NCBI GenBank assembly: GCA_002716625.1
Contig: PBAS01000007.1
Span: forward strand, 1-64,000
DNA: 64,000 bases
Direction of reading: 5' to 3'
Source of the DNA: Phycisphaeraceae bacterium
GTDB lineage: Bacteria > Planctomycetota > Phycisphaerae > Phycisphaerales > Phycisphaeraceae
Shown piece after piece: positions 8,288 to 60,158 of this stretch. The number at the start of each line of letters is the position of its first letter. Position 1 is the stretch's first letter. The notes beneath the pieces were generated by a model. That model worked only from the letters and a program-made list of their open reading frames with translations. It made no database searches and was not told the DNA's origin. Position numbers and translations under genes: made by a program.

Positions 8288-8332
8288 AAAAACGCTCAAA
8301 TTCTAGGCGTGATTGTTTGCCAGCGATCTGAA

Positions 8333-8833: not shown

Positions 8834-9181
8834 AAGACACCAGAGCAAGAACTCAAAGATAAAGTAGATCTTGTAAAACAAGAGCTTAAGAGAAAGCAAT
8901 ACCCATCAAAACACGCGCCAAAAGTCGAATCTGACCTGTTGATAACTATTTCAGGCTGTAGCTTAAACTTTTTGAAGCAAGAAAAGGGAATGCTGGTTTT
9001 GCAGGCAAATAAGAAGCTGGCCTTTGAGAATGGTACCAATATTCTCAGAGCCTTATCTTACATTGCTGGGGTGTATGAGCATGTAACGATTGCTGGCTGG
9101 ACTTGGCGACCAATACGCTACAAAAAGCATAAGTTGTATCTACGCCCTGTCGCTCCTGTAGATTTAGGTAGATCCGAGTGA
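8816..9181 (+). CDS. Hypothetical protein under tandem operators
   Basis: A 121-residue, Lys-rich protein. The N-terminus is helical (EQELKDKVDLVKQELKRKQY). The remainder alternates strands (SDLLITISGCSLNFLKQE, GMLVLQANKKLAFENG, EHVTIAGWTWRPIRYKKHKLYLRP). No family was recognised and no signal peptide is present. It is a single plus-strand gene between minus-strand units, ended by a strong bidirectional terminator. Two copies of the TTCSGAA dyad flank its start codon, so it is probably tightly controlled; a lysogeny or immunity function would fit but is unproven. Confidence 0.6.
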   Translation: MKFIPNKTPEQELKDKVDLVKQELKRKQYPSKHAPKVESDLLITISGCSLNFLKQEKGMLVLQANKKLAFENGTNILRALSYIAGVYEHVTIAGWTWRPIRYKKHKLYLRPVAPVDLGRSE

Positions 9182-9192
9182 TTAATCAATAA

Positions 9193-9222
9193 AAAAGAGC
9201 CTCTATCACTAGAGGCTCTTTT
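9193..9222. terminator. Bidirectional intrinsic terminator
   Basis: AAAAGAGCCTCTA pairs with TAGAGGCTCTTTT around a CACT-type loop. It separates the convergent gene at 8816-9181 from the end of the protease/scaffold gene. Confidence 0.9.
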
Positions 9223-9249
9223 CTGTGATCGCTATCACGCAGGATCTTC

Positions 9250-10221
9250 TTAGCTGAAACGTGTCGTTGATGGATCGAAGTCGATAGCATTTCTCTTAAG
9301 AATAGAACCCGCCTCAGACGTGCGACGAGTAATCGTACTAGCTGGCTCATACCCGCCTGTTGGAAGTGTCTTAGACTGATTACCGCCCAATGATTCAAAT
9401 AACGCCTGTACGACCTTTACATCGTCTTCACTGGCCATGCTGCCAATTGCTTTGCGCTGAGCGTCTGATAGGTACACTGGCAAGCTATTCGCGGCCTCCA
9501 GCAACATATCACCAATAGAGTTACGCGAATCAATCTGATCACGCAGTTCATTGTTGACGCTCTCCAGATACATAACATGATTTTCTAGATCTGCAGTGTT
9601 GGGTACCAGTGATGCACTTTGGATAGAATCAGCAATGGCCATTGCGTCGTCATACTCGAAACCGCCATGATTCTGCAGTGATTCAAGGATCATATCGCTC
9701 GCGTTCGCGCTCTCCAACATCATTGATGGATGGTCCAATGATAGGTAGTTAGGCTGCAGAACGTAATCCATACCATGGAATGACGTCGTTAGTGATGCTT
9801 GTGGTGTATCACGGCCACCGGTAGCCCATGACCAGCCACCAGCGCCAGATTCCCAAAGAGAAAGAGCAATTTTGCCCGTTGGGGTATCGAAAAACTCTTC
9901 TTCATGAGTGATCACGCCATTGTCATCACAAGTGATTGACTTGGTGCGGTTCGATGGCACGTTCTCCACCACCACCGGCTTACCTTGGACCATAATCACT
10001 TCGGTTTCGCCAATATCTAACTTGTTCGCACGTTGGCGCGGCTGGTGGCCATAATAACCATACGCCTCACCAACACGCAGTAACTCTTGTGTGCGTTGGT
10101 TGGCCAGCATGGATTGCACGCCTTTCACAATGTAATTGCGCTTATTCGCGCTTAGCTGTCGACCATCGTTGAACAGGCTAAAGCTATCTTTGACGGTCTT
10201 TAGTGTTTTTAGCTGTCGCAT
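9250..10221 (-). CDS. Head maturation protease fused to scaffold-like tail
   Basis: A 323-residue protein translated immediately after the portal (stop and start overlap as TAATG), the usual place of the prohead protease. Residues 1-160 contain GEAYGYYGHQ (His59) and GGWSWATGG (Ser131), plausible catalytic residues of the herpes/T4-type Ser-His maturation-protease fold. Residues 165-280 resemble a scaffold and carry repeated hydrophobic-hydrophobic-Glu-Ser/Ala sites: MMLES 167-171, MILES 177-181, MYLES 217-221, MLLEA 239-243 and ALFES 273-277. These would be self-cleavage sites. The protease call rests on position and architecture more than on an invariant motif. Confidence 0.7.
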   Translation of the reverse strand: MRQLKTLKTVKDSFSLFNDGRQLSANKRNYIVKGVQSMLANQRTQELLRVGEAYGYYGHQPRQRANKLDIGETEVIMVQGKPVVVENVPSNRTKSITCDDNGVITHEEEFFDTPTGKIALSLWESGAGGWSWATGGRDTPQASLTTSFHGMDYVLQPNYLSLDHPSMMLESANASDMILESLQNHGGFEYDDAMAIADSIQSASLVPNTADLENHVMYLESVNNELRDQIDSRNSIGDMLLEAANSLPVYLSDAQRKAIGSMASEDDVKVVQALFESLGGNQSKTLPTGGYEPASTITRRTSEAGSILKRNAIDFDPSTTRFS

Positions 10222-11906
10222 TAATTATCCCCCTGTGGAATGTGTTGAATTTCGCTCATGAGTTCGAGCAAGGTATCCCTGACGAACATCTCCGCTTCTT
10301 GGCGGTCTGTGGTACCAAGAGACTCAAGCATCGAGTCGTTTTCAGACGCGGATTTAGCGAGCTCTTTGATCGCTTTCTTAGCCAGCTCTGGGTCGATTTC
10401 TAGAACGGATGTGTAGATGTGGTTTTTGAGTGATTCACTATTGCCAATTGGTGATTGCTCGATTAGGTCAAGAACGGTGGCAAAGATCGTCGCGTAGTTA
10501 GCTTTCGCCTCTTGGTTCGCTGCTTCTTCTTGAGCTACTGCGGTATTGACGGAGTTGAATTGAATTTCGAAAGGTTCTTCACCTGTTGGCCAGTACTTGC
10601 CATCACGGTGAATCGTATGAATATCGATAGCACGACGAACAAAGCGAGCGACTGCAGCGCGAATTTGATGTGCTCGCAATGCGGATTGGATAGAGGTACG
10701 CAAAAAGCCGCCCTCCCCTAGCCCACCAGAGAGAAGATCACCAAAACCAAGCATTGACGGGTCCAACCCGATGCTTGCGGCCATGCGTTTAAGGTGGAAC
10801 ATAATATCTTCGATATGAGAGATATTCGGGTCAGTCGTGAACGTGTCGATTTGCACGCCGCCCTTACCCTCAGTCATTAATGGGATAAGGGTATTAATAA
10901 CCGTTGGGATAAAGCCTTGCTTGCGGGAGTTCTTTACAATCTTCTGGCGGTCTGACTGCATTTGAGCAGCAAGTAGATTGACGTATTCTGCCGCGCCTGC
11001 AGAATCAAGACCGGCTGTATTCACACCTACCAAACGATCAATTAGTGAGGCATTAACACGGCTGGCCCCTAATGATGCGATGCTCTGGCGTAGCATTTCC
11101 CACGACTCATACGTGCTGTGCAGTATCGAGGTACCGTAGTTTTGAGTTTCAATTGGTTGACGGCTGTAAGCATCGTCAAAGAGTGAGTATGCTTGGCCAG
11201 TGTAGTTAACCGGCTCTTTATCCATGTTCGGACGCCAAACCGGCATCTTAAGAGGGATAAGCGCCCATGGTTCAGCTAATCGCACTTGCTCGCCGTCTTG
11301 ACGTACCTTGAGGTGTTCAGACGTGAAACCACACAACACACCGGCACGCTCATATTCTCGAATCTGCTTAGCTTGCGTATAAAAATTCGATTCAAAGTGA
11401 GTGATGCCTTTGCCGTTCTGGGCGTATGGCCTGACGTAATTCACCCCGAAGACCAGCATGGGATAAGACCAGTTCATGATCTCTTCATTGATGGCCACCA
11501 TGAGTTCACGATTTAGCTGCGCTACATACTCTGCATGCTCTTCTGATTTCGGATGCAAAAAGACCGCTAGACCATTTTTGTCTGACGCGGATAGAGCGTG
11601 GCCAAGGTGAATGTTGAGTGCTGCATCAATGGTACTGTCCTCTGACATTTCCTTGAAAATCTCATAGAGCATGTACCGGTCTTCGGGGAGCTTGCGAATG
11701 TGAAAACGCTCACGACCTTTGCGGCCCTCTTTGGTTAAAGAGCCACTTTTCTCGCTTGGTGATTCGCTGCGTTCTTGGAAATTAGAGGCTCCATAGCTCG
11801 CACCGCTCTCATAACTTACACCAGCCTCTTTATCGTCTTTATCACTCCAAAAAGGAAAGGCTCGCCGTAGAGCTTCCTGTAAGCCATTGGTGCTGTTATC
11901 CGACAT
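10221..11906 (-). CDS. Portal protein (T4 gp20-type)
   Basis: A 561-residue portal vertex protein. Characteristic features of myovirus portals are an RYMLYEIFKEMSEDSTIDAAL segment (near residue 80), MNWSYPMLVFGVNYVRPY, a SILHSTYESWEMLRQSIASL helix region, a long internal helix containing KIVKNSRKQGFIPTV, and HLKRMAASIGLDPSMLGFGD. The SMLES site near residue 526 matches the proposed maturation-cleavage motif, so the C-terminal 30 residues may be trimmed. It forms the dodecameric channel for DNA packaging. The SD (AGAGG) lies in a small hairpin at 11913-11929. Confidence 0.85.
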   Translation of the reverse strand: MSDNSTNGLQEALRRAFPFWSDKDDKEAGVSYESGASYGASNFQERSESPSEKSGSLTKEGRKGRERFHIRKLPEDRYMLYEIFKEMSEDSTIDAALNIHLGHALSASDKNGLAVFLHPKSEEHAEYVAQLNRELMVAINEEIMNWSYPMLVFGVNYVRPYAQNGKGITHFESNFYTQAKQIREYERAGVLCGFTSEHLKVRQDGEQVRLAEPWALIPLKMPVWRPNMDKEPVNYTGQAYSLFDDAYSRQPIETQNYGTSILHSTYESWEMLRQSIASLGASRVNASLIDRLVGVNTAGLDSAGAAEYVNLLAAQMQSDRQKIVKNSRKQGFIPTVINTLIPLMTEGKGGVQIDTFTTDPNISHIEDIMFHLKRMAASIGLDPSMLGFGDLLSGGLGEGGFLRTSIQSALRAHQIRAAVARFVRRAIDIHTIHRDGKYWPTGEEPFEIQFNSVNTAVAQEEAANQEAKANYATIFATVLDLIEQSPIGNSESLKNHIYTSVLEIDPELAKKAIKELAKSASENDSMLESLGTTDRQEAEMFVRDTLLELMSEIQHIPQGDN

Positions 11907-26574: not shown

Positions 26575-29500
26575 TTAAAGCGCTTCAATCATTGCAGTGA
26601 TGGCCAACATAGCCGACTCCATGAGGGCTTCGTTTTCATCCACGCTATCTGCAGACTCAAAATAGGCATACGCCGCTTCAAGTTCATTTTGATGCTTGTC
26701 GATAACGGCCTGTTCTGGCTCGCCGGTATAGTCTCGGATTGCTTCCAGATTTTTGATGTGTTCCATTTCTTCACCATCTTGTTCTTGTTCTGGTGCCTTA
26801 TCTGTTAGCCCCAAACCAAAGATACAAAGCATTTCTAGTTCACTATGATTATCAAAATCCCCGAAGTGCTGAGCTTTGTCATGGCTATAGGCCGCAAACT
26901 TAAACTCACCGCCTCTAACCACTGGGTAGATTAATACTCGCTGTGTGCCAATCATCGCGCTTAAGGCACTGTGGCCATATAAGCCATCAATTGACGGGTC
27001 AGGGTTTGAGCTTAGAGATTTGCCAATGTTAATCTGGCCTTGGAACCCATCACCAAAATAAACATTTTGTGATTGCCAGTCGGTTAGCGCTTCAAGGTTC
27101 GCTTTGGCCTTTTCTTCTAGCGCGGCTGTTAGATGCTCATGAAGATCTGCAATCTTGTCGATCAGAGATTCTTCATCGTTGGCCTTGAACGTTTTAGCAT
27201 TGCCGTTTGGTAGTGTGACAGACTGTTCACCAAGCTTGATTTCGAAGTTAGTGAACTCTTCCAACTGCTCCAACATGATCGCGCTGTCAGAGTCTAGAGC
27301 TTCACGAATACCATTTACGTCGATAGTGGGTTCTGCTGACTCTTCACCTTGATGGTGAACCTCCTCTAGCGATTCAAGCTCTTCTACTTTCCGCTCACGG
27401 CGTAGCTCGCTATCGACTTTTAGGCGTCCACCATAGAAATTCACATCGAAGTAATCAGTCATTGAGTCACTTTCGTCATAGTTGAACTGATCTGTGAAAG
27501 CATCGACAAAAGTAATCAGTTGGCGAACTTCCTCGCTGTACTGTTCAGGCGCACCGGCTAATGAACCTTGCGGATTGTCTATTTCCCATTGTAGGAACTC
27601 TGGGCTATATAGCGTCACGTTCTCTGGTAGTTCAACAAGATTTAGATTGATACCATTACCATCTTTTTTGACTGAGATTTTTACGCTCGATGGCAGGCGA
27701 CCGGATTTGCGCATTTGAGTCATAAAGGCACGGATACGCTTAGCAATCTGCGTAGTATCTGTAATGCCCTCTTCCTCATAGATTGATCCAGAAGTGAACT
27801 CATTAGCGTTTAAATCCATGAGTTGTTGCTGTTCTTCGGTGCGCCCCTTTGCGGCTTCGTCTGCGTCATCGCTGGCCAAAGCATTATCTATATTTAAGTC
27901 TTTGTCTGGTTCTGACTGTGATTCAGGCTCAGTACTTTGACCTTGCTCTGATTGGCGTTCAGATTGCTGTTGAGCGTAGTCTGCAAGGATAACCGACTTA
28001 ATCTGGTCCCAAGTCGTTAGGCCAGTGCTGCCCTCTGTCGATAGCGGAGATCCCTCTGAATGGTATACAGAGAACGTCGCGTTATCGTAAGCGCGAACTA
28101 AGAACTCACCATAAACGTCGTCTTCGTCAGCGTCCGGTGCGTAGAAGTACACAAACGGATCTGTTGGGTCGGCCTTGTCCATGGTCCAGTCACTTGCAAT
28201 GTTCTTACGGCCAATCACGCTCATTAGCGCTTCTTTGAGTTGCTTATTAATATACTCTTCTGTCAGCTCTGGGAACGCTGGTGATAGGTTGTTTTCGACA
28301 AGCTCAATGAGGCTTTCATTTTGAAGATCAGAAAAGTCCATCTGGCCACCGTTGATAAGTGCGACCGCATCTTTAACCACATCGTCCATGTAGTCTGGAA
28401 TCGTGGTTGCAGCATCACGGCCATTGGCCTGCAGGCGTTGCTCAAACTTATCGGTGAGTTCTGCCTGTGCCGCTTCGTAACCTTGAGGGAAGCCAGCACT
28501 GATCACTGCCTGACGACGCTCATCACCGGTCATATCATCCCATTGCGGTGTATCTTCGCCTCCAGCACCATTTAAGCTAACAACGTTGCTTGTTGCGCCA
28601 CTTGCGCGGTCTAACTCTTCTTGAGTGTAACCATTTCGCATTAGAGTGTTTTTCACATCAGTGCCGAACTGTTCCATCTTCTCAGTACCGTAGTGCTTGA
28701 GCTTTGATAGGCTTGGATACGTGATGGTTTCTACAAACAGGCCACCAGCAACAACCCACGTCGCTTGGACCTCTTTACCCGTTCTTTTCACGGTGATGTG
28801 ACAATGTTCGCCATACTCAATGACATACTCGCCATCATCCAAAGCAGCTGCTTTTAACTTGGTTAATGAGTTTTTGGTTGGGAACCCATCAGCATCATCA
28901 ACTAGGTAGTAATAATCATCGTATTGGTTGCTTGGGTAGTTGTCCGATGGCGTTGACTCCACCGAGTTTTGAACCGTGATTTGTTCAGCGTAGTAATCTA
29001 AGTGCTCTTTAAAGGCTGAGTAAGTGCTGCCGGTCGCCTTTACGTCTCCTGCAGGGTTTACGATTGAATAACCGGTGTTGCCATCAAATAGCACTTCGTA
29101 ACCAGCATCACGCAGTTTTTGAACCGTCGCTTTATCTTGGCCAGACAAGTTAGCTTGGAGCTCTGGCTCATTAAACGAAACATGAGTCACATCCCCTGTC
29201 GGGCTCTCTTCTGGTGCCTGTTCTGGCTCTGATTCTACCGCGTTAACATTGCCAAGCTTCCAAATGCTATTGCGTGAGGTTACAGCTGGCTTATCAGCTA
29301 CGTCGTTAAATGCGCTTAGCATTGTTAGTGCGTCATCAACAAGCTGTTGCTCACCGTTCTTATGCATGGTTTTAATGCGGCCTGTCATGTTCTGAACGAA
29401 CAGAGAACGATCCGAACCATTAGCGCCATTGATATCGATATCGGCAATGGTACCCAGCGTAGAAATGAGATTGGTCCCTTTAGGACCGTGGCCCTGAACG

Positions 29501-30384
29501 GTTTTCATAGCCGCTCTTAGTTTAGGCTCATCAAATAGGTCACGATAAGGATCACCACTGTTAGGCGCTGCATCAGCCGCCGTGGCTGGCTCTTGAGCTT
29601 CTGGTGCTTGGGTGTTCAGTTGTTTACGCAGCTCTTCTTGAATTTCATTTTGCGTATCAATCTTGGTTCGCGCACGGCTGATTTTCTTTGAAAGTGCGTC
29701 AGATTCGCTCTCAAGTGAATCGGTTTCTTCATTTAGCTCGGCGGTTTGCTCTTCAAGGGATTGGGCTTGCTCTTGAGCTTGTTGGAGCGCTGCAGCGTCA
29801 GCGTTCTTTTTCTCTTGAGCGGCTGCGAACTTCTCGCTATTGGCCGTTACCAAAGAGCCAAGCTTTGTGGTTGCTTCTTTAAGTGATACATCCATGCCGC
29901 CTTTTGGTGCGACCGTATGAGTCACATCACGACTGTTGATCATGAAGCGAAAAGCGATAAGCGTATCGTCGCTGTTAATTTTCAGTGGATCATTGTCTGG
30001 GGCGTGGAACGCGATAGAAACACTCTGGCCATCAGATAAAGGAATCTTAGCGATTTGAACGGCGACCGCGCCCGATTTACGAGGCTTACCGATCTCGATA
30101 TCACCTGCAGTTATCTCGCCTGTCTTTTTCGATAGCTGGTTAGCAAACTTTTTCATTCGCTGGCCAAGCATTGCGGCTTTTGACTTGAACGCTTCGAGCA
30201 TCATTTGTGGCACTGGCTCACACTGGAACAAAAGCGTATTTTCCAGATCTTCCAATGAAACAGACTCAAGAATAAGGTCATTAGGATCCGACTTAAACAC
30301 ACTGTCTAGCTGGGCTGGAGTAAGTGGTTTAGCAAGGTGCTCGATGCGGTCCACTACTTTGATTTGTTTTTGGTTCTTAAACAT
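26575..30384 (-). CDS. darA: DarA-like internal head protein
   Basis: 1269 residues. Residues about 65-190 resemble the N-terminal domain of P1 DarA: SKKTGEITAGDIEIGKP, then VSIAFHAPDNDPLKINSDD, FRFMINSRDVTHTVAPKGG. A coiled coil (190-255) follows, then a long acidic, low-complexity and modular remainder of unknown function. DarA is a P1 internal head protein needed for antirestriction and for loading other Dar proteins. Likely maturation sites LILES (37-41), MMLEA (61-65), and ALMES and MIEA near the C-terminus fit processing of an internal head protein. It overlaps the upstream gene by 8 bases. The DarA assignment is from memory of the domain; the remaining 1000 residues are unassigned. Confidence 0.65.
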   Translation of the reverse strand: MFKNQKQIKVVDRIEHLAKPLTPAQLDSVFKSDPNDLILESVSLEDLENTLLFQCEPVPQMMLEAFKSKAAMLGQRMKKFANQLSKKTGEITAGDIEIGKPRKSGAVAVQIAKIPLSDGQSVSIAFHAPDNDPLKINSDDTLIAFRFMINSRDVTHTVAPKGGMDVSLKEATTKLGSLVTANSEKFAAAQEKKNADAAALQQAQEQAQSLEEQTAELNEETDSLESESDALSKKISRARTKIDTQNEIQEELRKQLNTQAPEAQEPATAADAAPNSGDPYRDLFDEPKLRAAMKTVQGHGPKGTNLISTLGTIADIDINGANGSDRSLFVQNMTGRIKTMHKNGEQQLVDDALTMLSAFNDVADKPAVTSRNSIWKLGNVNAVESEPEQAPEESPTGDVTHVSFNEPELQANLSGQDKATVQKLRDAGYEVLFDGNTGYSIVNPAGDVKATGSTYSAFKEHLDYYAEQITVQNSVESTPSDNYPSNQYDDYYYLVDDADGFPTKNSLTKLKAAALDDGEYVIEYGEHCHITVKRTGKEVQATWVVAGGLFVETITYPSLSKLKHYGTEKMEQFGTDVKNTLMRNGYTQEELDRASGATSNVVSLNGAGGEDTPQWDDMTGDERRQAVISAGFPQGYEAAQAELTDKFEQRLQANGRDAATTIPDYMDDVVKDAVALINGGQMDFSDLQNESLIELVENNLSPAFPELTEEYINKQLKEALMSVIGRKNIASDWTMDKADPTDPFVYFYAPDADEDDVYGEFLVRAYDNATFSVYHSEGSPLSTEGSTGLTTWDQIKSVILADYAQQQSERQSEQGQSTEPESQSEPDKDLNIDNALASDDADEAAKGRTEEQQQLMDLNANEFTSGSIYEEEGITDTTQIAKRIRAFMTQMRKSGRLPSSVKISVKKDGNGINLNLVELPENVTLYSPEFLQWEIDNPQGSLAGAPEQYSEEVRQLITFVDAFTDQFNYDESDSMTDYFDVNFYGGRLKVDSELRRERKVEELESLEEVHHQGEESAEPTIDVNGIREALDSDSAIMLEQLEEFTNFEIKLGEQSVTLPNGNAKTFKANDEESLIDKIADLHEHLTAALEEKAKANLEALTDWQSQNVYFGDGFQGQINIGKSLSSNPDPSIDGLYGHSALSAMIGTQRVLIYPVVRGGEFKFAAYSHDKAQHFGDFDNHSELEMLCIFGLGLTDKAPEQEQDGEEMEHIKNLEAIRDYTGEPEQAVIDKHQNELEAAYAYFESADSVDENEALMESAMLAITAMIEAL

Positions 30385-47882: not shown

Positions 47883-50800
47883 TTACTCCAAGTCAGCGCT
47901 TTGGCGCTGCAGTGAATGATCGTTAAAGTTGTTTGGAATAGCCCCCGTGCTCTTACTTGTTGATGCTGGAGTACTGTCTTTCGCTTTCACTGGACCGCCG
48001 TATCGGTAGATCTCTTTGGTGTTGGTACCACCAGCGGCCTTGCCGACCTCTTTGATGGCATCAAGAGACGCCTTATCGAGCGTGACCTCTTGCTTGCTGG
48101 ATTCACTTTTCAACTTCTCCGCGTCACGTTGTGCATAAATCTGGTTAACACTTTCGTTTTGGGCGATCTGATTAGTCGCCGTGGCCACGGTCTGGGTTGA
48201 GGTAGGCTGAGAAGCTTGCGCTACGTTCTTGGCTTGGCTCTGACGGCTTTGGCGCTCGATGAATGCCACACTGTTAGCCAGCTGGGTGTCTGCGCTGGTT
48301 TCAGTGTTATCACTGATAGATTTCATCGACTCCAGCTGTTTGGAGCGATCCACTTCGCTTGCTTCGGTCTGGGCCGTATTGCTTTGTGATTCCGTTGCTA
48401 GCTGGTTGGATTTTTCAATGGCTGTGCTAACACTCTCAAGCTGAGCGGCAGCTGCAGTGTGTGAAGCTTGGGTTACTTCATTGCTCATTACCGTGCGTTC
48501 ACTGATCGCCCCAATGCTTTCAAGTTGCTTGTCTACATTGCTTTGAGAGGCTTGAACCGTTGAGCTTTGTGATGTGCTCTGGCTTGCGCTTTCCAATGCT
48601 TTGCTTACGCTTTCTACTTGATTGTTTTCTGCAGAGGTTTGGCTCGCTTGGCTGGTGGATTGATCGCTGCTTCGCTCGATGAGCTGGCTATCGTTCTGCT
48701 TTGAAATTTGGCTGTCAGATTGGCTGTCGCTTTGCTGTGACGCCTTTTCAAGCGCGTTGCTAATGTGACTTACCTCATTTGCACTCGTCGCCTGTGAGGC
48801 CTCGCTGGTGCTGCTGGTTGCCTGTGTTGTTTCGTTGATGCCTTGAGCTCGAAGTTCAGAACGTTCGCGTGCTGATAACTGGCTTCGTGAGTCACTAGCT
48901 GTATGGCTCTCTTGTGTTCCAGTTTCGCTGCTACGTTCTTTCGCTTCGGTGGCCACATCACTTGAGCTCACAACATGCTGACGTTCTGCCGCTTCGATAG
49001 CATGGGTAGACTGGCGATCTCTCACTTGTTCAGTCGAGCTTTGATCACTTGACGCTTTCTCTTGCGCTTCGCTTACTAGTGACGACTGGCTACGTTCACT
49101 GCTTGAGCTTTGAACCTTATTACTTTGGCTTGATGCTTCGCTTTGAGTGGCTTGATGTGCGCTTTCGGAGACAGAAACCACCGAATCTATCTGGGAGTCA
49201 GACGCAACTTGTACAGCTTCGCTATGAGTACCGGTTTGATTGTTTTCGGAGCTTTCAGAGCGAGCGTTAACTTGCTCACTCTCTGTTGAGCTTTGCTCGC
49301 TGGTTTGCCCTGACTTATCCACGGTTGACGCGCTAGTACCATGAGTTGAAACAGACGACGCTTGGCTATCAACATGATCCGAGGCTGCAATCTCACTTAC
49401 TATGCTGACGCTTTCAGCTTGTGTTAAATCTTGAACCTGACTCGCTTCACTCGCGCTTGAGCTTTGTAATGAATCCAAGCCCGTGGTTGCCTCGATACGT
49501 TCGCTTTCTGCTGTTGTGTCGACACTGTTTGAATTGCGTTCATGCGTTGTGCCATCCGTCTTAGATGACTGCTCAGAGGCTTGAGAACTAGCCGAGGATG
49601 CTTGGCTATCTGTGGTTTCGCTTTGGCTTGCGCTTTCCAAAATAGAGGCGGTGCTGGCCAGTGGTGTATCGATATTGGTGTGCTCTGCTTGGCTGGTACC
49701 TTGCGAGATTTTAGTGTTGATATCTTCAAGCCTAGAGGCTGTCTCGATATCAACAAACCCACCATTGGCGAATGAGCTTTCGCTGTTCGCTTCTTGGATC
49801 TTCGCCACTTCCTCACGGCGTTTGATTTCAGCATCGACAACGGCCAGCTGTGCTTCTTTCTTGCTGCTCGATACAAGATCACCGCGCTCTGTTGCGACCT
49901 TGCCATCAATCGGCTGACCGATCTCGGAGGACACACTCTCGCGCTTCTCTTTTAGCTCTTTGTCGCGCTGCTCTTTAACGCTTTTAGCTTGGTTGTAAGA
50001 AATCCCCTCTTCATTGGCAATCGCCCATGTAGCCTGCATTTGACTGTAGGCGTCGTTTTTCCTTTGGTTCTCTTGTAGCGTGCGGCTAGATTGGCTATTA
50101 CCAGTATTCATTGCGCTGTTGTGAATAGCTTCGGCTTTGAATCGTGCCTCTTCCTGCTCACTAAACGTTTTGGCCACGCTATCCTGATCGCTTTGAGTGC
50201 TAACTTGCTGGCTGACTGCAGACGCACTTTGAGTGCTTTCATCAGTGGTTTGATTGGCGTTCGTCGTGCTTTCGGTTTTGCTGTCGCTTTCAGTGGATTC
50301 ACTCTCGCTATCATCACCGGCAAAGAATGAATAAATGCCCTTGGCCATATCACCAGAGGTAAAGCTCATTGCTTCTTGCGCACCCTCAATCCCCAGCGCT
50401 TCAAGGCCAGAGCCGATTAACCCAGCACCACCGCTAACAAGACCACCCATATCAAGGACCGACGCTAGAGCCATACTAGACTTTTGCCCTGTGGTAGCTT
50501 CTTCACCCTCTTTGAGATTGAATGTTTCACGCTGACGCTCAGTGTCAGTAAATCCACTAAATGCGTCATAGGCCATTAACGCTGGAGCGAGTAAAGGAAC
50601 GGCTTTTGCGGCTACACCACCAATCTTTGAAAGACCTTTAAACGCGGTACCGGCCATAGAGGTTCCTTTGGCCATTAGCGAGGATCCTTTGCCAGCTGCG
50701 CTACCTGCTACGTCACTCGCACCGGACAGAACCGAACGAATACGGCCACCTCTTCGGGTACCCTTGGCACCTTTACCTTTGCGACCTCTTCGACCTTTGC

Positions 50801-52502
50801 GATCCTCTTTGTCACGGCCAAACATATCACCGGCCAGATCCATAAGGCCACCACCGCCATCCCCACCACTGGCTTTAACTGCACTTTCGAGATCATCCAG
50901 CTTATCGAGTAACGCCTCTGAATGGCTCTCTTGAGCGCTGCTGGTTTCTTTTAAGACCTCCAGCTGTTCGGCGCGAAATGACGCCTCTTTGGCTGTACTG
51001 GTTAGTGAACGGGTAGCGCTGCGATCAGTCGTGTTATTGTTTGTAGTAGTTGTGACTGAGGTAGTTGATGACTGTACGCCACCACGGCTATCAGATAGAA
51101 CGCTGCTAGTGGAATTAGTAAGCTTATGGTCGCGTTGTTGTTCATGCTTGCTCTTCTGTTGGTTGTTGTTGGTAGTATCACTGCTGCTCTCGCGCTCGCG
51201 TTTAGACTCTTCTGCAAGTTCACTTGCGGAAGTAACACTTTGCGACTGGCTATCTGAGACTTGATTAGACAGACTCTCGCTAACAGACGTTAAGCTATCG
51301 GAGTTGTCGGTTTGCTGGGTTTGGCTGGCTTGCTGCTGCAGCTGCTCTGAACTTCGTGTTGCTGTCGATTCGGCAAGGTGACTGTCACTATCACGGGATG
51401 CCTGATCACGACTCTCACTCAAGCGCTCTGTTGAATCGCTCTGGCCACGCTCGGCAATCGTATTGCTATCGCGTTCGCTTTGGCTTTCAGTGCTGCTCTC
51501 GCTATCGCTGGTGGATTCCTCTTCGGTTGAGGTATCACGCTTTAGAAACGTGTTTACAAAACCATTCTCTTTAACGCTTTGGATGTTTGAACGCGCTTCT
51601 TTAACGCTATCCATGCCATCTTGAGACAGCTTGTACATTTCCTTAGCTGAGTAGAAAAAGGATCCACCGGTTGCGGCCCCTGCAGCCTCTTGTGCATCAT
51701 GATCTTCACCTAGCGTCGATTCTGCTTGGCGCAGGCTCAAATCTTTGATGGCAGAGCTAAACGAGGCAAAGATCGAGGTTTGCTTTTCGCTCTCTTGGCT
51801 GCGCTTCTCTGATTCGCGTTCTTTGGCTGTTTCAGAGGCAGAGCTATAGCGCTCTTGCTCGGTTTTACTGGCGTACTTACCATCACTGCGGCGCAAACGG
51901 CCACCAGCATCTTTCCAGTAACCATCAAACTCCGCTAAACCGTCCTCAATGGCGGCCTTAACATCACTTGGAAGAGAATCAAGCGCTGACGTATCGAGCT
52001 CGTTATCAATCTGAGGCTCAGAAACGTCTACATTAACGCTTGGCTGGCTCTCTGCAGAGACTTCGACTGGTTCAACGATAATTGGCTTGTCTTGCTTCTC
52101 GGTCGCCTCTGGGGCGCTCTCACGCTCATTGAGGACGTCAGCAATTGGCTTAACCATCGCTGCACTGTTCGGCTCTTCTTTTGCTTGGGCCTGTGCCGGT
52201 TCGCGGTCCATGGTCAGCTGTATCTCACCAGAACGTTGATCCGACTTAACACGGCGACCGCGTTGACGACGCTTTTCTTTGGTTGGCGGCTCGCTGCGTT
52301 GAGCGACTGCAGAATTGTCTTTTAATGCCTTTTCAATTGGTTTTGTATCGATGTTTGCGACGATTTCAGGCTGAACTGGTAGGCCAGACAAATTATCCAA
52401 CTTGTCTGCTATAGCCTGCAATTTTTTCAGCTCTTTGTCACTTGATGTTCGGACCACTTCAACGATAGAAAAGAGATCAAACTGTTGTTTTTTAGTGTCC
52501 AT
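47883..52502 (-). CDS. Tape-measure-like protein, extremely Ser/Gln/Glu-rich
   Basis: 1539 residues, lying between the chaperone/frameshift locus and gp25, the standard position of a tape measure. The N-terminal third and C-terminal half are dominated by Ser, Gln, Glu and Ala. The centre has a basic, Gly-rich RKGRRGRKGKGAKGTRRGG stretch (about residue 570) and hydrophobic helices (LLAPALMAYDAFSGFTDTE). At about 1.5 angstrom per residue it would span roughly 230 nm, a long contractile tail close to that of P1. The composition is unlike most tape measures, so the call rests on position, length and helical propensity. Confidence 0.65.
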   Translation of the reverse strand: MDTKKQQFDLFSIVEVVRTSSDKELKKLQAIADKLDNLSGLPVQPEIVANIDTKPIEKALKDNSAVAQRSEPPTKEKRRQRGRRVKSDQRSGEIQLTMDREPAQAQAKEEPNSAAMVKPIADVLNERESAPEATEKQDKPIIVEPVEVSAESQPSVNVDVSEPQIDNELDTSALDSLPSDVKAAIEDGLAEFDGYWKDAGGRLRRSDGKYASKTEQERYSSASETAKERESEKRSQESEKQTSIFASFSSAIKDLSLRQAESTLGEDHDAQEAAGAATGGSFFYSAKEMYKLSQDGMDSVKEARSNIQSVKENGFVNTFLKRDTSTEEESTSDSESSTESQSERDSNTIAERGQSDSTERLSESRDQASRDSDSHLAESTATRSSEQLQQQASQTQQTDNSDSLTSVSESLSNQVSDSQSQSVTSASELAEESKRERESSSDTTNNNQQKSKHEQQRDHKLTNSTSSVLSDSRGGVQSSTTSVTTTTNNNTTDRSATRSLTSTAKEASFRAEQLEVLKETSSAQESHSEALLDKLDDLESAVKASGGDGGGGLMDLAGDMFGRDKEDRKGRRGRKGKGAKGTRRGGRIRSVLSGASDVAGSAAGKGSSLMAKGTSMAGTAFKGLSKIGGVAAKAVPLLAPALMAYDAFSGFTDTERQRETFNLKEGEEATTGQKSSMALASVLDMGGLVSGGAGLIGSGLEALGIEGAQEAMSFTSGDMAKGIYSFFAGDDSESESTESDSKTESTTNANQTTDESTQSASAVSQQVSTQSDQDSVAKTFSEQEEARFKAEAIHNSAMNTGNSQSSRTLQENQRKNDAYSQMQATWAIANEEGISYNQAKSVKEQRDKELKEKRESVSSEIGQPIDGKVATERGDLVSSSKKEAQLAVVDAEIKRREEVAKIQEANSESSFANGGFVDIETASRLEDINTKISQGTSQAEHTNIDTPLASTASILESASQSETTDSQASSASSQASEQSSKTDGTTHERNSNSVDTTAESERIEATTGLDSLQSSSASEASQVQDLTQAESVSIVSEIAASDHVDSQASSVSTHGTSASTVDKSGQTSEQSSTESEQVNARSESSENNQTGTHSEAVQVASDSQIDSVVSVSESAHQATQSEASSQSNKVQSSSSERSQSSLVSEAQEKASSDQSSTEQVRDRQSTHAIEAAERQHVVSSSDVATEAKERSSETGTQESHTASDSRSQLSARERSELRAQGINETTQATSSTSEASQATSANEVSHISNALEKASQQSDSQSDSQISKQNDSQLIERSSDQSTSQASQTSAENNQVESVSKALESASQSTSQSSTVQASQSNVDKQLESIGAISERTVMSNEVTQASHTAAAAQLESVSTAIEKSNQLATESQSNTAQTEASEVDRSKQLESMKSISDNTETSADTQLANSVAFIERQSRQSQAKNVAQASQPTSTQTVATATNQIAQNESVNQIYAQRDAEKLKSESSKQEVTLDKASLDAIKEVGKAAGGTNTKEIYRYGGPVKAKDSTPASTSKSTGAIPNNFNDHSLQRQSADLE

Positions 52503-54638: not shown

Positions 54639-55136
54639 TTAGAAGTCACACCAGTTGTATTGCAGCGTTAGAGACGGTTTCACGATTGCTGCCGTATCTT
54701 CTGTTGATAGATCGATAGCATCAGAACGAATCTTAGTGTGCTCAAGCTTGAATGAGTGAGACTTGGCACCTTTACCGCTTGTTGATTCTGGCGTTGATTC
54801 AATTGTGATAGTTAGGTACTGCTTGTCACGTACTACTTTACGCAGCATTTCCAGTACGGTACCGGTAATGGTTTCGACACACGTTACCGCGATCTCACCT
54901 TTGTTCTCTAGGACGCCGTTTTGCACGAATCCCATACCCATTTGACCATAGTCTTCTACGTCAGAACGGCCCATTGCTGGGAATTGAGTTGAACGGATTA
55001 ACACGGTTAGATCTGGGTATTCTTCGATTTTCATCTCGAACTCGGTACCCATCATCTTTTCACCAGCAGCTACGTTCTTAAGGAACTTCTGCTTTAGAAA
55101 CTTAGTGTCACCTTTGGCGTTGTGTGGACCAGCCAT
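54639..55136 (-). CDS. Tail tube protein
   Basis: 165 residues, the size and composition of contractile-tail tube proteins: MGTEFEMKIEEYPDLTVLIR, MGRSDVEDYGQMGMGFVQNG, GEIAVTCVETITGTVLEMLR and KPSLTLQYNWCDF at the end. It is the last gene before the strong terminator of the capsid-sheath operon. A TTCSGAA copy (55165-55173) lies in the end of the preceding gene, 29 bases before its ATG, but with no clear -10. Confidence 0.78.
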   Translation of the reverse strand: MAGPHNAKGDTKFLKQKFLKNVAAGEKMMGTEFEMKIEEYPDLTVLIRSTQFPAMGRSDVEDYGQMGMGFVQNGVLENKGEIAVTCVETITGTVLEMLRKVVRDKQYLTITIESTPESTSGKGAKSHSFKLEHTKIRSDAIDLSTEDTAAIVKPSLTLQYNWCDF

Positions 55137-55152: not shown

Positions 55153-55761
55153 TTATTTGAAGTAGTTCGGAATTTGAGACTGATTAATCATCTGTTTCGG
55201 TGATGCTGTAACCGTCACGGTGTTGTAGGCAAAATGCCCCGCCTTGGTCTTCGGTGCGTTGGCGTTGTAACTCACTTCGCTAATTCGCATTGGTAAGTTA
55301 ATTTTGCGGCCAACGTTGAACACGGCGTCTGACGGAATACGGCCCCCGATACCATCAGTGCTAACCGGCACAGTGTTTTGAAGCTCTGGCGATACCATTT
55401 GGCAAAGCTTTTGGATTGGCATATCCACTTCGTTCAAAGCATCTGTGTACGCAACAAAGCGTAGAGTTAACGAGATTTCTGGGGGTTCGTTGCCCTGCCA
55501 AACTTGCTGGCTATTCCATAACGTCTTACTGGTTGTCTCCGACATTGCTTGCGTAAGGGACGCGGTTTTATCCACGGCCCCAACGTTACCTACAGAATCC
55601 CCCTCGAATGGAGACTCCCATAGCGCTCTAAACGCGAGCTGACATTCATCAGTCATGTAGGCAATGACCGTAACCTCCGTGCCACCGATGTTTTGTGTGA
55701 TGTAGCATTTGTTAAAGTTGGAAATGCCGTCATCACTAGGTACGCCGTAAATTACTGCCAT
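55153..55761 (-). CDS. Baseplate/tube-associated structural protein
   Basis: 202 residues, beta-rich. PPEISLTLRFVAYTDALNEV and IQKLCQMVSPELQNTVPVS resemble the segments of gp48/gp53-type baseplate and tube-capping proteins. It lies between the tail core protein and the tube. No single diagnostic residue was found, so the assignment to the tail completion/baseplate group is by similarity of layout and position. Confidence 0.55.
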   Translation of the reverse strand: MAVIYGVPSDDGISNFNKCYITQNIGGTEVTVIAYMTDECQLAFRALWESPFEGDSVGNVGAVDKTASLTQAMSETTSKTLWNSQQVWQGNEPPEISLTLRFVAYTDALNEVDMPIQKLCQMVSPELQNTVPVSTDGIGGRIPSDAVFNVGRKINLPMRISEVSYNANAPKTKAGHFAYNTVTVTASPKQMINQSQIPNYFK

Positions 55762-55773: not shown

Positions 55774-56436
55774 TTACATGCCGCGAGATTTACGCTGGCG
55801 CATGGATTTCTTACGGGCAGCTTTTGAAGCGCCAGTACGCGATTTAGCGCGAGCTTTTTTCAGTGCGGCCTTTTGTGCTGCACTCATGCGACGTTTGCGC
55901 TTTTTGGTGTTGATGAACGTCACTTTGCCGTCGCGAATTACTTTCTTTTTCGCTTCTAGCATCATGGATTCACGTACCGCGAACTCAGCAACCGCTTCGT
56001 CGGAATCAACGTTCTCAAGTCCCGCTTCTAGGGATTCGAAAATGTGGTTTACCGCTTCTTCGTCTTCGCCAAAGTCCAAAAGCTTATCTTCTTGAATACC
56101 TGAAATAGACAAGATGAATTCTGACGCGTGATTTTGTAGAGACTCATACATAGCCATTTGGCTATCGCTTAGCTCTTCATCATCAACACCGCCAGCAGAG
56201 CCATATAGCAATGCGTCTAACGTGTCTGCAGTTGCATCACCACCATTAGCCCATTGCACACACGCTGACGCTGCAGCCATGCGATCTTGGGTTACGGCCA
56301 TACGCTCGATAGACTCAAGCATCATGTTGTCGTCAACCGACTCAAAAAACGCTGTTTCTGTTAGGTCTTCCTCGGCCTGCACCACTGGTGCTTTAAAAGG
56401 ACGAGGAAGAACAGAACCTTTTTCAAACATGCTCAT
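55774..56436 (-). CDS. Prohead core/internal protein with basic C-terminal peptide
   Basis: 220 residues. Residues 1-160 are acidic and contain five candidate protease sites: AFFES (29-33), MMLES (38-42), MYES (96-99), IFES (132-135) and MMLEA (158-162). The last 60 residues are strongly basic (KKRKRRMSAAQKAALKKARA, then KAARKKSMRQRKSRGM). Cleavage at the last site would free a ~59-residue cationic, DNA-binding peptide. This is the design of T4 prohead core proteins that are processed into internal peptides. It lies between the sheath and the baseplate-type gene. No homologue is recognised, so the role is inference. Confidence 0.6.
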   Translation of the reverse strand: MSMFEKGSVLPRPFKAPVVQAEEDLTETAFFESVDDNMMLESIERMAVTQDRMAAASACVQWANGGDATADTLDALLYGSAGGVDDEELSDSQMAMYESLQNHASEFILSISGIQEDKLLDFGEDEEAVNHIFESLEAGLENVDSDEAVAEFAVRESMMLEAKKKVIRDGKVTFINTKKRKRRMSAAQKAALKKARAKSRTGASKAARKKSMRQRKSRGM

Positions 56437-56455: not shown

Positions 56456-58033
56456 TTAGCGAACTAGGATTGGTTCACCGATTAATCGGCGGCCTGAACC
56501 GGTTGGACAGATAGACCAAGTGACTTTCCACAAGTCGATTTCGACTTGGATAATCTCAAAGGTCCATGGGGATTCACCGTCTTGCTCTGGGTCGCGTGGC
56601 GCTACCAGTGCACCCACAGTTTCGTAACCCTCAAAGATGGCTGTCATACCGTCTTCGATTGCTTTTTCTGTGTCGTCATCTGGACGGTGCTTGATGCGGT
56701 TCGCCAGTGCTACAAAGTCGCGAGAAATAGCGTCTGTAACAGAAACCACTTGTTCGAAACGTAGGTAGTTTTCAACCGGCGTCGACGTTAGAGAGTCATC
56801 AATGAACAGTGCACCGTTCTCGCTAACACCTAGTTTGTTAAGGCGTGCTTTGTACATTTCTTCAAAGTTAGGCTCTCCTGAACCACGTAGTGGCGTCAGG
56901 CCTGCACGCGAGATAACTGCACGCTCAACACCTGCCGGTGTGTAGTGCCAGCCACCTGTTGGAGAGGTCTTAGATACACCCAGTGCTTTCGCTGCGAACG
57001 CGATACCTGACGCGCCCCACGGACACTTGTTTTTGTACGTTGGACACTTCGCCGCATACGGCAAGTGAACGTAAGAGGCACGGTGGCAAGCTAGGTTTAG
57101 GCCTTGCTTGTGTGCTAGCGCTTGGGCGTGCGTTAGACGTGGGTTGATATCGTAGTAACCAGAGATACGACGATCATCACTCAGCTTTTGCAGCTTCTTC
57201 GTTACTGCGTCGTCGTAGCAGCTCAAACCACAAATGTAGTTAAAGCCAAGGACCGTAGAACGTAGCGCAGTGATCGCCGCGTCATAGTCAGAGGTCTTGA
57301 TAGCGCTTAGGTCGCCGTTTGAAGCGCCTGTAAACGCTGTTTCTGCCATTGCTGTTAGTTCAGCTTTAGCCGTTGCTGCGTCACATACACAAGATAGGTA
57401 CTTAGATTTCTGCTCTAGAACCGTCTCGATGTACGCCGTTGCACCCATCTGATCTTTTGCTTCTGGGTCGAATGAAACGATCCACTCTTCCAGAGTCGCT
57501 TTACCACCAGCTTCTTGAGTTTCTTTCAGCGTCAGCTTAAGCATGCCCTTGCCGTAAAGCTTCTCATCGACTGACTCGATAGAGACGCTACGGTTTGCTG
57601 ACTCAGCACCATCTTTAATGGCCAGAGCTAGGAACTCACCAGAGCCCAGATCAAGATCAGCGCTGTAAGCAATGGCTTCATTGGTGAATACCAATTTGTC
57701 AGCTGGCTTAGTCACTTTGATTGCTGGGAATGTCGCTGTTGCTGGAACAACACGAACGACTAGGCCGTCACCGCCTTTTAGTGCTTCCGCTAGGGTACGC
57801 ATACCGTCAGCGTGAACACCAAGGCTTGAATGGAATGGTTTACCCAGTACATCAGTTAGGTTCGCATCAGTAACGCGTAGTACTTCAAACGGTTTACCTT
57901 TCTGAGAAACGATAACACCAGCAAATGTCAGCTGGTTTGAACCACCACCACGCTTGGTTGTCGCGTCTGCATTGATTGGCGAAACAACGGTTTGAGCCAC
58001 GTTGTTCATTGCAAATCCAATATCTTTACTCAT
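56456..58033 (-). CDS. Tail sheath protein
   Basis: 525 residues. Family features include FAGVIVSQKGKPFEVLRVTD near the start, GGDGLVVRVVPATATFPAI, a FNYICGLSCYDDAVTKKLQK segment, and a C-terminal ENYLRFEQVVSVTDAISRDF...EIIQVEIDLWKVTWSICPTG typical of the sheath attachment region (domain IV). It contracts on injection. The start overlaps the HhH gene by 8 bases. It follows the capsid gene in a capsid-HhH-sheath operon. Confidence 0.85.
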   Translation of the reverse strand: MSKDIGFAMNNVAQTVVSPINADATTKRGGGSNQLTFAGVIVSQKGKPFEVLRVTDANLTDVLGKPFHSSLGVHADGMRTLAEALKGGDGLVVRVVPATATFPAIKVTKPADKLVFTNEAIAYSADLDLGSGEFLALAIKDGAESANRSVSIESVDEKLYGKGMLKLTLKETQEAGGKATLEEWIVSFDPEAKDQMGATAYIETVLEQKSKYLSCVCDAATAKAELTAMAETAFTGASNGDLSAIKTSDYDAAITALRSTVLGFNYICGLSCYDDAVTKKLQKLSDDRRISGYYDINPRLTHAQALAHKQGLNLACHRASYVHLPYAAKCPTYKNKCPWGASGIAFAAKALGVSKTSPTGGWHYTPAGVERAVISRAGLTPLRGSGEPNFEEMYKARLNKLGVSENGALFIDDSLTSTPVENYLRFEQVVSVTDAISRDFVALANRIKHRPDDDTEKAIEDGMTAIFEGYETVGALVAPRDPEQDGESPWTFEIIQVEIDLWKVTWSICPTGSGRRLIGEPILVR

Positions 58034-58442
58034 TGTTTGCCTCTTTCAGAGTTAAGTTGTTTGCGGCTAACTGCTTTTCAATTTCTTGAACACCAGCTGC
58101 AGCAATGCCTTTCACCTTTACAACGTCTTTCGCCGTCATAGCTGTGAGTTGGTCCAATGTCGTTACGCCCGAAGTCACAAGGGCTTTTTCTACGCTGGTG
58201 GTTAAACCAAGAGTGGAAATGCTTGCTGGATCGTCGGTACCGTCTTCGCTCTGTTGAGCTTCTTCCAGAGACGCACGAACGCTCAGCTCACCGTTTGGGT
58301 AAGCCTGTTCAAGTGCATTGAGGAAGTATTGGAAGTTGTGGACCGATACCTGTTGGTTGACGGCGCGAGCGCCAATCACGCGGCCAAGCAGCGTAATTTC
58401 GATTGGAGTGTGATTAGTGACGAAAATGATTTGTTCTTTCAT
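58026..58442 (-). CDS. Virion-operon protein with RNA polymerase alpha-CTD-like HhH domain
   Basis: 138 residues. Residues 76-132 (ISTLGLTTSVEKALVTSGVT, LDQLTAMTAKDVVKVKGIAA, AGVQEIEKQLAANNLTL) match the fold order of RpoA C-terminal domains (xLxLSxRxxxxLxxAGIxTVGEL, TxEDLxxIxxLGxKSLxEIxxxL). The N-terminal 60 residues are a beta-rich unit (TNHTPIEITLLGRVIGARAV). In alpha-CTD this module binds DNA and activators, but HhH modules also occur in structural DNA-binding proteins. Its place between capsid and sheath genes, with coupled translation, favours a virion or head-completion role. Confidence 0.65.
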   Translation of the reverse strand: MKEQIIFVTNHTPIEITLLGRVIGARAVNQQVSVHNFQYFLNALEQAYPNGELSVRASLEEAQQSEDGTDDPASISTLGLTTSVEKALVTSGVTTLDQLTAMTAKDVVKVKGIAAAGVQEIEKQLAANNLTLKEANNE

Positions 58443-58490: not shown

Positions 58491-60158
58491 TTAAGCCGCT
58501 TTCTTCGCTGGAGCTTCATTAATTAGCTTGAGGCGGTAGAAGTAATCTTCACCGTCATACGGGTGGATTTCACCGTAAGCCAATTCATAAAGTGTGTTGC
58601 TTGCTACAAGGTTCTTACCGATGCTGTGCGTGTACATCGTTGCAGCGATTGCGTCACCTGCTACGTAGCCTGCTTCTGAGTGAGAATCACCACGGCCATA
58701 ACAAAGCATTTCCATGGTGCCGATAACCACCGGTGCTTCGTACACTTTCCACATGCCAAATAGACGGCCTGCGTAGTGAATAGAGTTCTTCTGACGGTAG
58801 TTTGATGGAGTCACAAAGTATGGTGCGCCAAGCGTTTTCAGGATGTTCGCCGCTTGGGTGCCTGCGAAGATGCCGCGTAGGCCTGTTGTCTTCGTTTGTT
58901 GCAGGATCTTCGTAGAAATGTTCAGTAGCACTTCGTTTAGGCGCTCACGGTGCAGTTTCCAGTCTTCACCAGCTTCTACGTACAGGTTGAACGTTTCTTC
59001 ACGCTTACAAGAGAAATTCATATCGTTTAGGTGGCGAACTGATTTCTCTGCCGCTAGCGTGTTACGCATGTGAGACGTTTGCATTGACTTGATATCAATT
59101 TTGAATTCACGTTGCATTGTGAACATTGCTTGAATCGTTGCATCTGCAGCTACCGCGTTTTGACGTGGGCGCAGCGTCATTGAATCCATTTCATGTTCGA
59201 TAGTCGGGATAAGCTCTGGCTTCTTCTCGATATCGACTTCAAACTCAGCGTGAAGCTCAACACCTGTTGGTAGAGCTGTAGCCGACGCCGTAGTCACATC
59301 GATCTTGCCTTTCACGTAATCCACGTCACAGTTGAATACGATCTCTTCGCCAGACTGCAGCTTGTACTTGCCGCTCATCATGCCGCCTTTCGAATCCATA
59401 TCGCGACAAACGCGCTTACGGTCAACGAATAGAGACACTGACGTCTTAGTGAATGGGATTTCAAAGTCTGTGTGTTTGAGATCCGTTTTCGTACTGAACG
59501 TGAATTTCTTCTTAGAGCCGTCTGGGCGTTGACCGGCTGCGAACTCATAACGTTGGCGCATTGACGTGTACTGGCCAACCGTTGTTTGGTCGATTTCAGT
59601 ACCCACTTGGAAGTCACCGAAGTTAGAGCCTGTTTTACGGTACACTTTGAAGATCTCAACTTCGGTCGTGTTTGCAGGCATCATCGTTACTGCGTCTAGT
59701 GTTGCTGTTTCTAGCAATACAGGAAGAACGATACCCACCATACGAGCGCGAATTTCGACACCTTCTGACGTTGATAGTGACTGGCCAATCGACTCAAGCA
59801 TCATTTGACCCATGTTGCCGGAATTTGAACGGCCCTCTAGGCCCATCATGTTTTCCATTGTGCTGTACGCACTTGCTAACACTTCGTCGCGAGGCAGCTC
59901 ACCGTGAGATTTTTCGTACTCACGTAGTGCCGACTGCATGCCCGAAACAATACCGATGGATTGATCTTGAGTTAGGCCTGAAAGCATTGAGTCTTTGCTG
60001 ATCGCTTCCAGCATTGCGTCTGCACGCTCGCCATCGTCTGTTAGAAAGACGCCGGTTTGCGCGTTGAATTGCGAATCAAGACATAACGCACGCATAGATT
60101 GACTTAGCTCTGCGATTTTGGAAATTCGCTTGTTAAATGATTCTTTTTTATCTGACAT
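58491..60158 (-). CDS. Major capsid protein with cleaved prosequence
   Basis: 555 residues, T4 gp23-like in layout: an N-terminal delta/prosequence ending at MMLES (119-123) and likely cut after Glu122; an earlier site MLEA is at 49-52. The mature part begins SIGQSLSTSEGVEIRARMVG, then GIVLPVLLETATLDAVTMMP. A long E-loop/P-domain region, DSMTLRPRQNAVAADATIQA, and TTGLRGIFAGTQAANILKTL follow. The promoter upstream (TTTAAC at 60224-60229, TAATGT at 60202-60207) carries the recurrent dyad. It forms the icosahedral shell. Confidence 0.9.
   Translation of the reverse strand: MSDKKESFNKRISKIAELSQSMRALCLDSQFNAQTGVFLTDDGERADAMLEAISKDSMLSGLTQDQSIGIVSGMQSALREYEKSHGELPRDEVLASAYSTMENMMGLEGRSNSGNMGQMMLESIGQSLSTSEGVEIRARMVGIVLPVLLETATLDAVTMMPANTTEVEIFKVYRKTGSNFGDFQVGTEIDQTTVGQYTSMRQRYEFAAGQRPDGSKKKFTFSTKTDLKHTDFEIPFTKTSVSLFVDRKRVCRDMDSKGGMMSGKYKLQSGEEIVFNCDVDYVKGKIDVTTASATALPTGVELHAEFEVDIEKKPELIPTIEHEMDSMTLRPRQNAVAADATIQAMFTMQREFKIDIKSMQTSHMRNTLAAEKSVRHLNDMNFSCKREETFNLYVEAGEDWKLHRERLNEVLLNISTKILQQTKTTGLRGIFAGTQAANILKTLGAPYFVTPSNYRQKNSIHYAGRLFGMWKVYEAPVVIGTMEMLCYGRGDSHSEAGYVAGDAIAATMYTHSIGKNLVASNTLYELAYGEIHPYDGEDYFYRLKLINEAPAKKAA

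Follow-up and report, generated by a model that had tools for sequence, protein, structure and literature searches.

The window, meaning the whole 64,000-nucleotide stretch of DNA that was analysed, represents a P1-like phage-plasmid, containing relatives of the P1 portal, Pro, capsid, sheath, PmgG, tube and PmgC proteins along with DarA-like, Hdf-like, DarB-like and ParA/ParB-like genes. The capsid protein and Pro were named by homology to P1, and the Par genes from their own sequence. Positions 55774-56436 encode, on the minus strand, a protein of 220 residues followed by a stop; the earlier note had not named the strand, and the plus-strand reading of this interval from its first base contains many stops. 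The cleavage motif used throughout is defined as two hydrophobic residues and Glu, followed by Ser or Ala, with a vertical stroke marking the proposed cut. The features considered are as follows.

55774..56436, minus strand: gp21-family protein (PHROG 1053), 220 aa, proposed prohead core protein (translation, homology)
55954..56436, minus strand: acidic body of gp21, residues 1-161, predicted helical, net charge -30, proposed to give five fragments (composition, model)
55777..55953, minus strand: basic C-terminal domain of gp21, residues 162-220, net charge +24, gp68-like (composition, model, profile comparison)
56341..56343, minus strand: codon of Glu32, proposed cut FFE|SV (motif)
56314..56316, minus strand: codon of Glu41, proposed cut MLE|SI (motif)
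56143..56145, minus strand: codon of Glu98, proposed cut MYE|SL (motif)
56035..56037, minus strand: codon of Glu134, proposed cut IFE|SL (motif)
55954..55956, minus strand: codon of Glu161, last proposed cut MMLE|AKKK, aligned across the family (motif, family alignment)
58491..60158, minus strand: major capsid protein (MCP; P1 gp23 orthologue), MMLE122|S (alignment to the P1 cut)
9250..10221, minus strand: orthologue of the head maturation protease Pro, itself carrying five motif sites in the C-terminal half (homology, motif)
26575..30384, minus strand: DarA-like internal head protein (Pfam DarA_N), N-terminal sites LILE40|S and MMLE64|A (Pfam, motif)
10221..11906, minus strand: portal protein, negative control (motif unswitched in the two plasmids checked)
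56456..58033, minus strand: tail sheath (P1 gp22 orthologue), upstream neighbour of gp21, negative control (PHROG)
55153..55761, minus strand: PmgG orthologue (tube-baseplate linker in P1), downstream neighbour of gp21, negative control (PHROG)
54639..55136, minus strand: BplB tail tube orthologue, negative control (PHROG)

Several other genes of the window show features of their own. PHROGs places the window Pro in phrog_1801 'tail fiber protein' (E 1.4e-101), a label that is probably wrong. Between capsid and sheath, 58026-58442 (minus strand) encodes a 138-aa protein with no PHROG match; in Vibrio relatives the gene at this position carries the annotation RNA polymerase alpha C-terminal-domain protein. 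A 1539-aa protein with very long Ser/Gln/Glu-rich stretches (47883-52502, minus strand) stands in place of P1 Sit, the tape measure, and a 1858-aa probable tail fibre (39210-44786, minus strand) carries many near-repeats of a 'KVAK..ISDSVTS' unit. A tRNA scan gave no match, and PADLOC, applied to four window proteins, returned one weak match.

Judged by homology and gene order, the 220-aa protein is an orthologue of phage P1 gp21 (AAQ14136 / AAQ14028) and is called gp21 hereafter, giving a name to a sequence that the earlier note had not recognised. PHROG 1053, a family of unknown function, matches it at E 3.2e-54 across residues 13-220, and tblastn against P1-group phages gives a best E of 8e-15, with about 39% identity to P1 gp21 across residues 38-212. 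Matching records number 22 in phages at E<=1 and 882 in plasmids at E<=1e-3. The window and P1 proteins share the gene order sheath-21-PmgG-tube, the layout, the last cut site and the basic tail, but the P1 protein has 271 aa against 220 in the window, with a longer N-terminal part, and its gene record carries the annotation 'baseplate or tail tube'. The fuller order capsid - (small gene) - sheath - gp21 - PmgG - tube is common to the window, P1, D6 and JK004. By position and annotation, the same capsid-to-tube order recurs in 13 plasmid relatives with two annotation exceptions, namely Photobacterium p1_510, which has no listed PmgG gene, and one other plasmid, whose capsid gene is annotated in pieces. 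Used as a single query, gp21 found no relative among genome contigs and one identical copy only among viral contigs, and a search of 60 relatives and 396 class-level genomes, the window's own genome aside, gave no match. No Pfam match above the cut-off and no tail PHROG were obtained for gp21, the neighbouring sheath and tube having matched their PHROGs.

The protein divides into an acidic body (pI 4.05) and a basic tail of 59 residues (6687 Da, or 6.7 kDa, with a pI of 12), the tail measuring 55-61 aa with a net charge of +18 to +28 in 62 distinct family members. Cutting the body at all five sites would yield fragments of 32, 9, 57, 36 and 27 residues, each net acidic, and leave the tail intact. 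Among 100,000 composition-preserving shuffles of gp21 the mean was 0.35 motif sites and no copy had 5, ruling out a chance run of Glu sites; as background, a chosen subset of 36 window ORFs was counted, and the 32 left after setting aside gp21, Pro, the DarA-like protein and MCP hold 15 sites in 15,614 aa. In 61 of 62 members the body holds between three and six sites in Glu, Asp, Ser or Ala form. With the Ala form left out of the count, the motif appears 250 times in the bodies of the 62 members and never in the tails, which fits a tail that needs to be released whole or to stay bound. These figures bear out the earlier description of an acidic 220-residue protein with five proposed cut sites and about 59 very basic terminal residues.

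The motif is identical to a cut mapped in P1. The P1 capsid protein is cleaved between E120 and S121, AMLE|SVAAEM, as determined by Edman sequencing (PMC9024508), and MMLE122|S of the window MCP aligns with this site. P1 DarA carries DLLE68|A69, and the P1 virion structure paper describes a cryo-EM model of DarA only from residue 70 (PMC12810830). Elsewhere in the window, the DarA-like protein (26575-30384) has three C-terminal motif sites, YFE|S, LME|S and MIE|A, at residues 1243-1267, a pattern that suggests a second trimmed end. According to the accessible parts of three reports (PMC9026906, PMC9958956, PMC5694885), the head proteases of T4, phiKZ, 201phi2-1 and SPN3US all cut after Glu, and Asp at the cut position of T4 IPIII inhibits processing. 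As far as these sources extend, the proposed gp21 sites resemble those of T4 gp67/gp22 and of the phiKZ/SPN3US propeptides, which are cut at short Glu-ending motifs by the prohead protease, whereas P1-like phages differ from these systems in that Asp and Ser/Ala cut versions appear to be included. In the literature searched, which took in few subscription papers, no report was found that places P1 gp21 in the core, describes its cleavage, or shows Asp or Ser cleavage by such a head protease; one study groups P1 gp21 with tail-fibre-related genes (PMC11117986).

The family sample was drawn from profile searches, which yielded 15 genome loci and the best 80 of 151 viral relatives, together with loci collected earlier; a separate later search kept the best 80 of 113. 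Removal of duplicates reduced 114 loci with both proteins to 62 distinct gp21/MCP pairs, with L039 contributing gp21 only and L001 and L002 excluded as own or identical copies; L038 and L077 have no MCP site, leaving 60 pairs with an aligned one. Classes were set by hand from the same two positions, the MCP site and the last gp21 site, and 54 of the 62 pairs belong to the Glu class, 4 to the Asp class and 4 to the Ser/Ala class. At these positions (MCP first, gp21 second) the residue before the cut reads E,E in 50 pairs, D,D in 4, S,S in 3 and A,S in 1. Two further pairs read E,S because the gp21 site is shifted by one column, where they hold AMLE|S.

The site counts change jointly in several proteins. 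Glu/Asp/Ser/Ala sites in gp21 number 212/7/4/35 in the 54 Glu-class members, 0/14/1/1 in the 4 Asp-class members and 1/2/9/5 in the 4 Ser-class members, and the corresponding counts in the first 150 residues of the MCP frame are 134/2/11/68, 1/8/1/2 and 0/0/7/7. Pro, obtained from 12 of the 14 records searched, has 3-7 Glu sites in seven Glu-class proteins; 8, 7 and 5 Asp sites with no Glu in the Asp class; and, in the Ser class, 4 Ser sites in one protein and 4 Ala with 1 Ser in another. Aeromonas pASP-135, with the capsid site KMLD|S, carries four Asp sites in gp21 and eight in Pro, and neither protein has a Glu site. Moritella pMR24a, whose capsid site reads MLLS|S, carries three Ser sites in gp21, six in Pro, which again lacks Glu, and two in DarA. 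Motif counting finds in pASP-135 DarA one Asp site near the N-terminus and one Glu site at the far end, and inspection by eye finds AFTD|AIVT where P1 has DLLE|AISS; from these sequences DarA appears to follow the class switch less clearly than the capsid protein, gp21 and Pro.

Some further observations concern the same records. The P1-like phage-plasmid pMR24a carries an annotated diversity-generating retroelement (Avd and reverse transcriptase, 3494-5115), and pASP-135, an Asp-class P1-like phage-plasmid, carries integron and IS26-linked resistance genes (about 18687-49500). Position 28 of Pro (window numbering) is Arg in 9/9 Glu-class and 4/4 Asp-class proteins and Gln in 3/3 Ser-class proteins, and the aligned sequences present Arg28 as a candidate specificity position, the Ser class being one clade.

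On a tree of 59 MCPs built with the cut region removed, three class changes are needed, Asp twice and Ser once; the count used one label set on both sides and is a count of changes only, not evidence of correlation. With just three switches a formal sign test cannot reach significance, and the weight of the joint change, which is the strongest evidence, comes from the several sites in several proteins altered at each switch. The sites, their absence from the tail and their joint change in gp21, MCP and Pro, and partly in DarA, are direct observations on the sequences. Together with the identity of the motif to the Edman-mapped P1 capsid cut, the joint change argues for gp21 as a substrate of the head protease, in agreement with the earlier suggestion of cutting inside the head.

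Sheath, PmgG, tube and portal were used as control proteins. Glu/Asp/Ser sites in the sheath number 54/33/4 in 54 Glu-class proteins, 4/2/1 in 4 Asp-class proteins and 0/7/2 in 4 Ser-class proteins. The Asp-class sheaths retain one Glu each with no gain of Asp; the Ser-class sheaths have only 2 Ser and no Glu sites (0 in 4), the latter being a point against gp21 as a core protein. PmgG and tube, both found in 52/54 Glu-class loci, have few sites and no clear class switch. The portal, considered as a further Pro substrate, was rejected on its unswitched motif: it retains Glu in the Asp-class plasmid, with no class switch in the two plasmids checked, indicating that an isolated motif does not by itself mean cleavage.

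The AlphaFold2 model of gp21, built from 27 sequences, has a mean pLDDT of 75 and predicts for the tail a beta hairpin (163-176) followed by helices at 186-199 and 202-217. Ten-residue pLDDT means range from 86 to 94 over 181-220 and are 64 and 69 over 161-180, which gives the helices firmer support than the hairpin. Foldseek of the model against the PDB gave no match below E 1, and VIA-align reached a Z of 5 at most, offering no solved fold for the body and barely covering the tail. With the tail alone as query, tblastn matched P1-group phages only, in 21 records, and in 19 records in another run, where only 25 of 60 residues aligned among the matches listed. A Foldseek match led to SP15_037 of Bacillus phage SP-15, which the family profile finds at E 4.6e-24. 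The SP15_037 gene lies directly after a neck gene and two genes from the capsid gene, and its product resembles gp21 in having the same basic domain after an acidic region, among head genes, but extends about 85 residues beyond that domain. As a query against viral contigs SP15_037 found SP-15 itself only; a relative in Listeria phage LIS04 is 43.5% identical to the SP-15 protein. In the SP-15 record the annotation splits the major capsid gene (7480-9997) in two, and an endonuclease gene stands in between.

A single-profile HMM match of T4 gp68, biased and with an E of 0.015 over 6 sequences, was not strong enough to be relied on, and profile-profile comparison with shuffles was adopted for this reason. 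Alignment of the gp21 family to 17 gp68-type sequences by hhalign scored 46.1/52.8 in the two directions, with a probability of 91/95%, and 200 column-shuffled copies each way scored at most 33.9/35.0. The score was 34.8/42.0 on the first alignment and 32.9/41.0 without the bridging Vibrio phage D481, and control comparisons gave 15-17 for reversed profiles, 15-17 for the capsid family and 32.2 for gp21 versus Pro. On this profile similarity, the gp21 tail is probably a remote homologue of the T4 core protein gp68, the relationship being confined to the C-terminal region. The gp21 family gave no match to T4 gp67, Foldseek with a gp68 model did not return the gp21 family among the 50 matches listed, and the matches listed for the gp21 model likewise held no gp68 link.

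The two proteins share an acidic N-terminal part followed by a basic C-terminal part, which in gp68 comes right after LNE; the profile match spans gp68 50-140 and window gp21 145-220, and both predicted models end in two successive basic helices. They differ in that gp68 has 141 aa, a gene placed between gp67 and the protease gene, and an extra segment in its basic part, whereas gp21 has a longer body and is covered by the match in its last part only. In the T4 literature (PMC9026906, PMC9958956, PMC5694885), the core proteins are gp22, gp67 and gp68, whose cleavage yields small peptides that presumably exit the head, and gp68 is present at ~240 copies and stated not to be essential. The earlier remark that the design recalls T4 core proteins gains substance from the remote similarity of the tail to gp68.

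The motif sites, their joint change with the capsid protein and Pro, the gp68-like tail, the absence of gp21 from the published P1 virion descriptions and the place of the SP-15 homologue near the capsid gene lead us to regard gp21 as, very probably, a scaffold-type protein of the prohead core in P1-like phages, cut by the head protease Pro. By analogy with T4, the most likely course begins with full-length gp21, which would be enclosed as the capsid protein assembles with the portal, the conserved basic C-terminal domain holding it in the core via the capsid protein, another core protein or nucleic acid, and the acidic helical body filling the core. Pro would cut gp23, DarA, itself and gp21 after the hydrophobic-hydrophobic-Glu motif, turning the gp21 body into small acidic pieces that would leave, making room for DNA, and freeing the 59-residue basic domain uncut. 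Cutting of gp21 in vivo, its location in the core, the binding partner of the basic domain and its retention in the virion are what we infer here. No separate scaffold was found in P1 (PMC9024508), and the virion structure paper also says that P1 lacks one (PMC12810830).

Alternatively, as the earlier note had proposed, the last cut could release a histone-like peptide that would remain inside the mature head, there to condense or neutralise the DNA. A charge of +24 in 59 residues and the absence of the motif from the tail in 62/62 members suit such a role, as does a low-resolution protein density near DarA inside the P1 head that the authors left unassigned (PMC12810830). The P1 gp21 tail gives only two tryptic peptides of at least 6 residues (LTAAQK, AQTGAAK), so the published proteome could miss it, and the virion table alone says little about the tail domain. 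Against retention as a histone-like peptide, the two tail helices are confidently predicted, the hairpin less so, unlike a disordered histone-like tail; the T4 gp68 fragments presumably escape; and the SP-15 domain has about 85 further residues after it. At about 240 copies, the T4 gp68 number, such a peptide would neutralise only about 3% of the phosphates of a 95-kb genome. A histone-like, DNA-condensing peptide is on these grounds not supported and appears unlikely, scaffolding or capsid binding being likelier than DNA condensation as the role of the basic tail.

The annotation of P1 gp21 as a tail tube or baseplate protein has several observations in its favour, which at the same time count against gp21 as a core protein. 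The gene stands between sheath and PmgG/BplB, among tail genes and about 46 kb from Pro in the window. A point against the core reading alone is that P1 gene 21 is essential by CRISPRi, as against the non-essential T4 gp68; the knockdown may be polar onto downstream pmgG and bplB. Gene 21 amber mutants were reportedly scored as tail defective by Walker and Walker in 1983, a score that polarity onto pmgG/bplB or a misassigned mutation could explain. The evidence from virions points away from a tail role. The P1 virion proteome table contains 23 proteins, listing ORFs 55 and 57 and not ORF 56 (gene 21) (PMC9024508). The virion structure paper models or assigns almost all capsid, connector and baseplate proteins, and its accessible part does not name gp21 (PMC12810830); the tape measure and fibres are unresolved in that structure, so a small flexible tail part could hide. 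An earlier P1 tail paper models sheath, tube and terminator, again with gp21 unnamed in its accessible part (PMC10304247). Considering in addition that no tail family matches gp21 in PHROGs or, above the cut-off, in Pfam, and that its sites follow the head-protease code, which those of sheath, PmgG and tube do not clearly do, a tube or baseplate function is very improbable. There is likewise little likelihood that gp21 acts as a non-structural chaperone in tail or head-tail assembly, with the motif kept for another reason and only trimmed by Pro: its absence from the virion proteome table, tail-gene neighbourhood and apparent essentiality would agree with this, but it has a gp68-like tail and, in 61/62 members, three to six sites that switch with MCP and Pro, implying that gp21 regularly meets Pro, whose action is expected inside proheads.

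With gp21 taken as a prohead core protein, a broader scenario can be drawn, which as a whole we hold to be doubtful. P1-like phages would have a separate core protein in gp21, the residue after which Pro cuts would have changed at three points of the tree (two changes from Glu to Asp and one unrooted split between Glu and Ser/Ala) with the sites rewritten each time in the capsid protein, gp21 and Pro, and the freed basic domain would be kept in the mature head, at the capsid inner face or on the DNA, contributing to the density near DarA.

P1 is a standard transducing phage, and moving gp21 from the tail to the head core provides a testable candidate for the scaffold that P1 seemed to lack, as well as a possible candidate for the protein density inside the P1 head. 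A core role for gp21 would also correct a tail label that several records carry. That the residue before the cut switches jointly in the different Pro substrates constitutes a natural experiment in protease-substrate co-evolution, and it suggests that head-protease substrates may be found from sequence alone, as proteins whose sites switch together with the capsid site.
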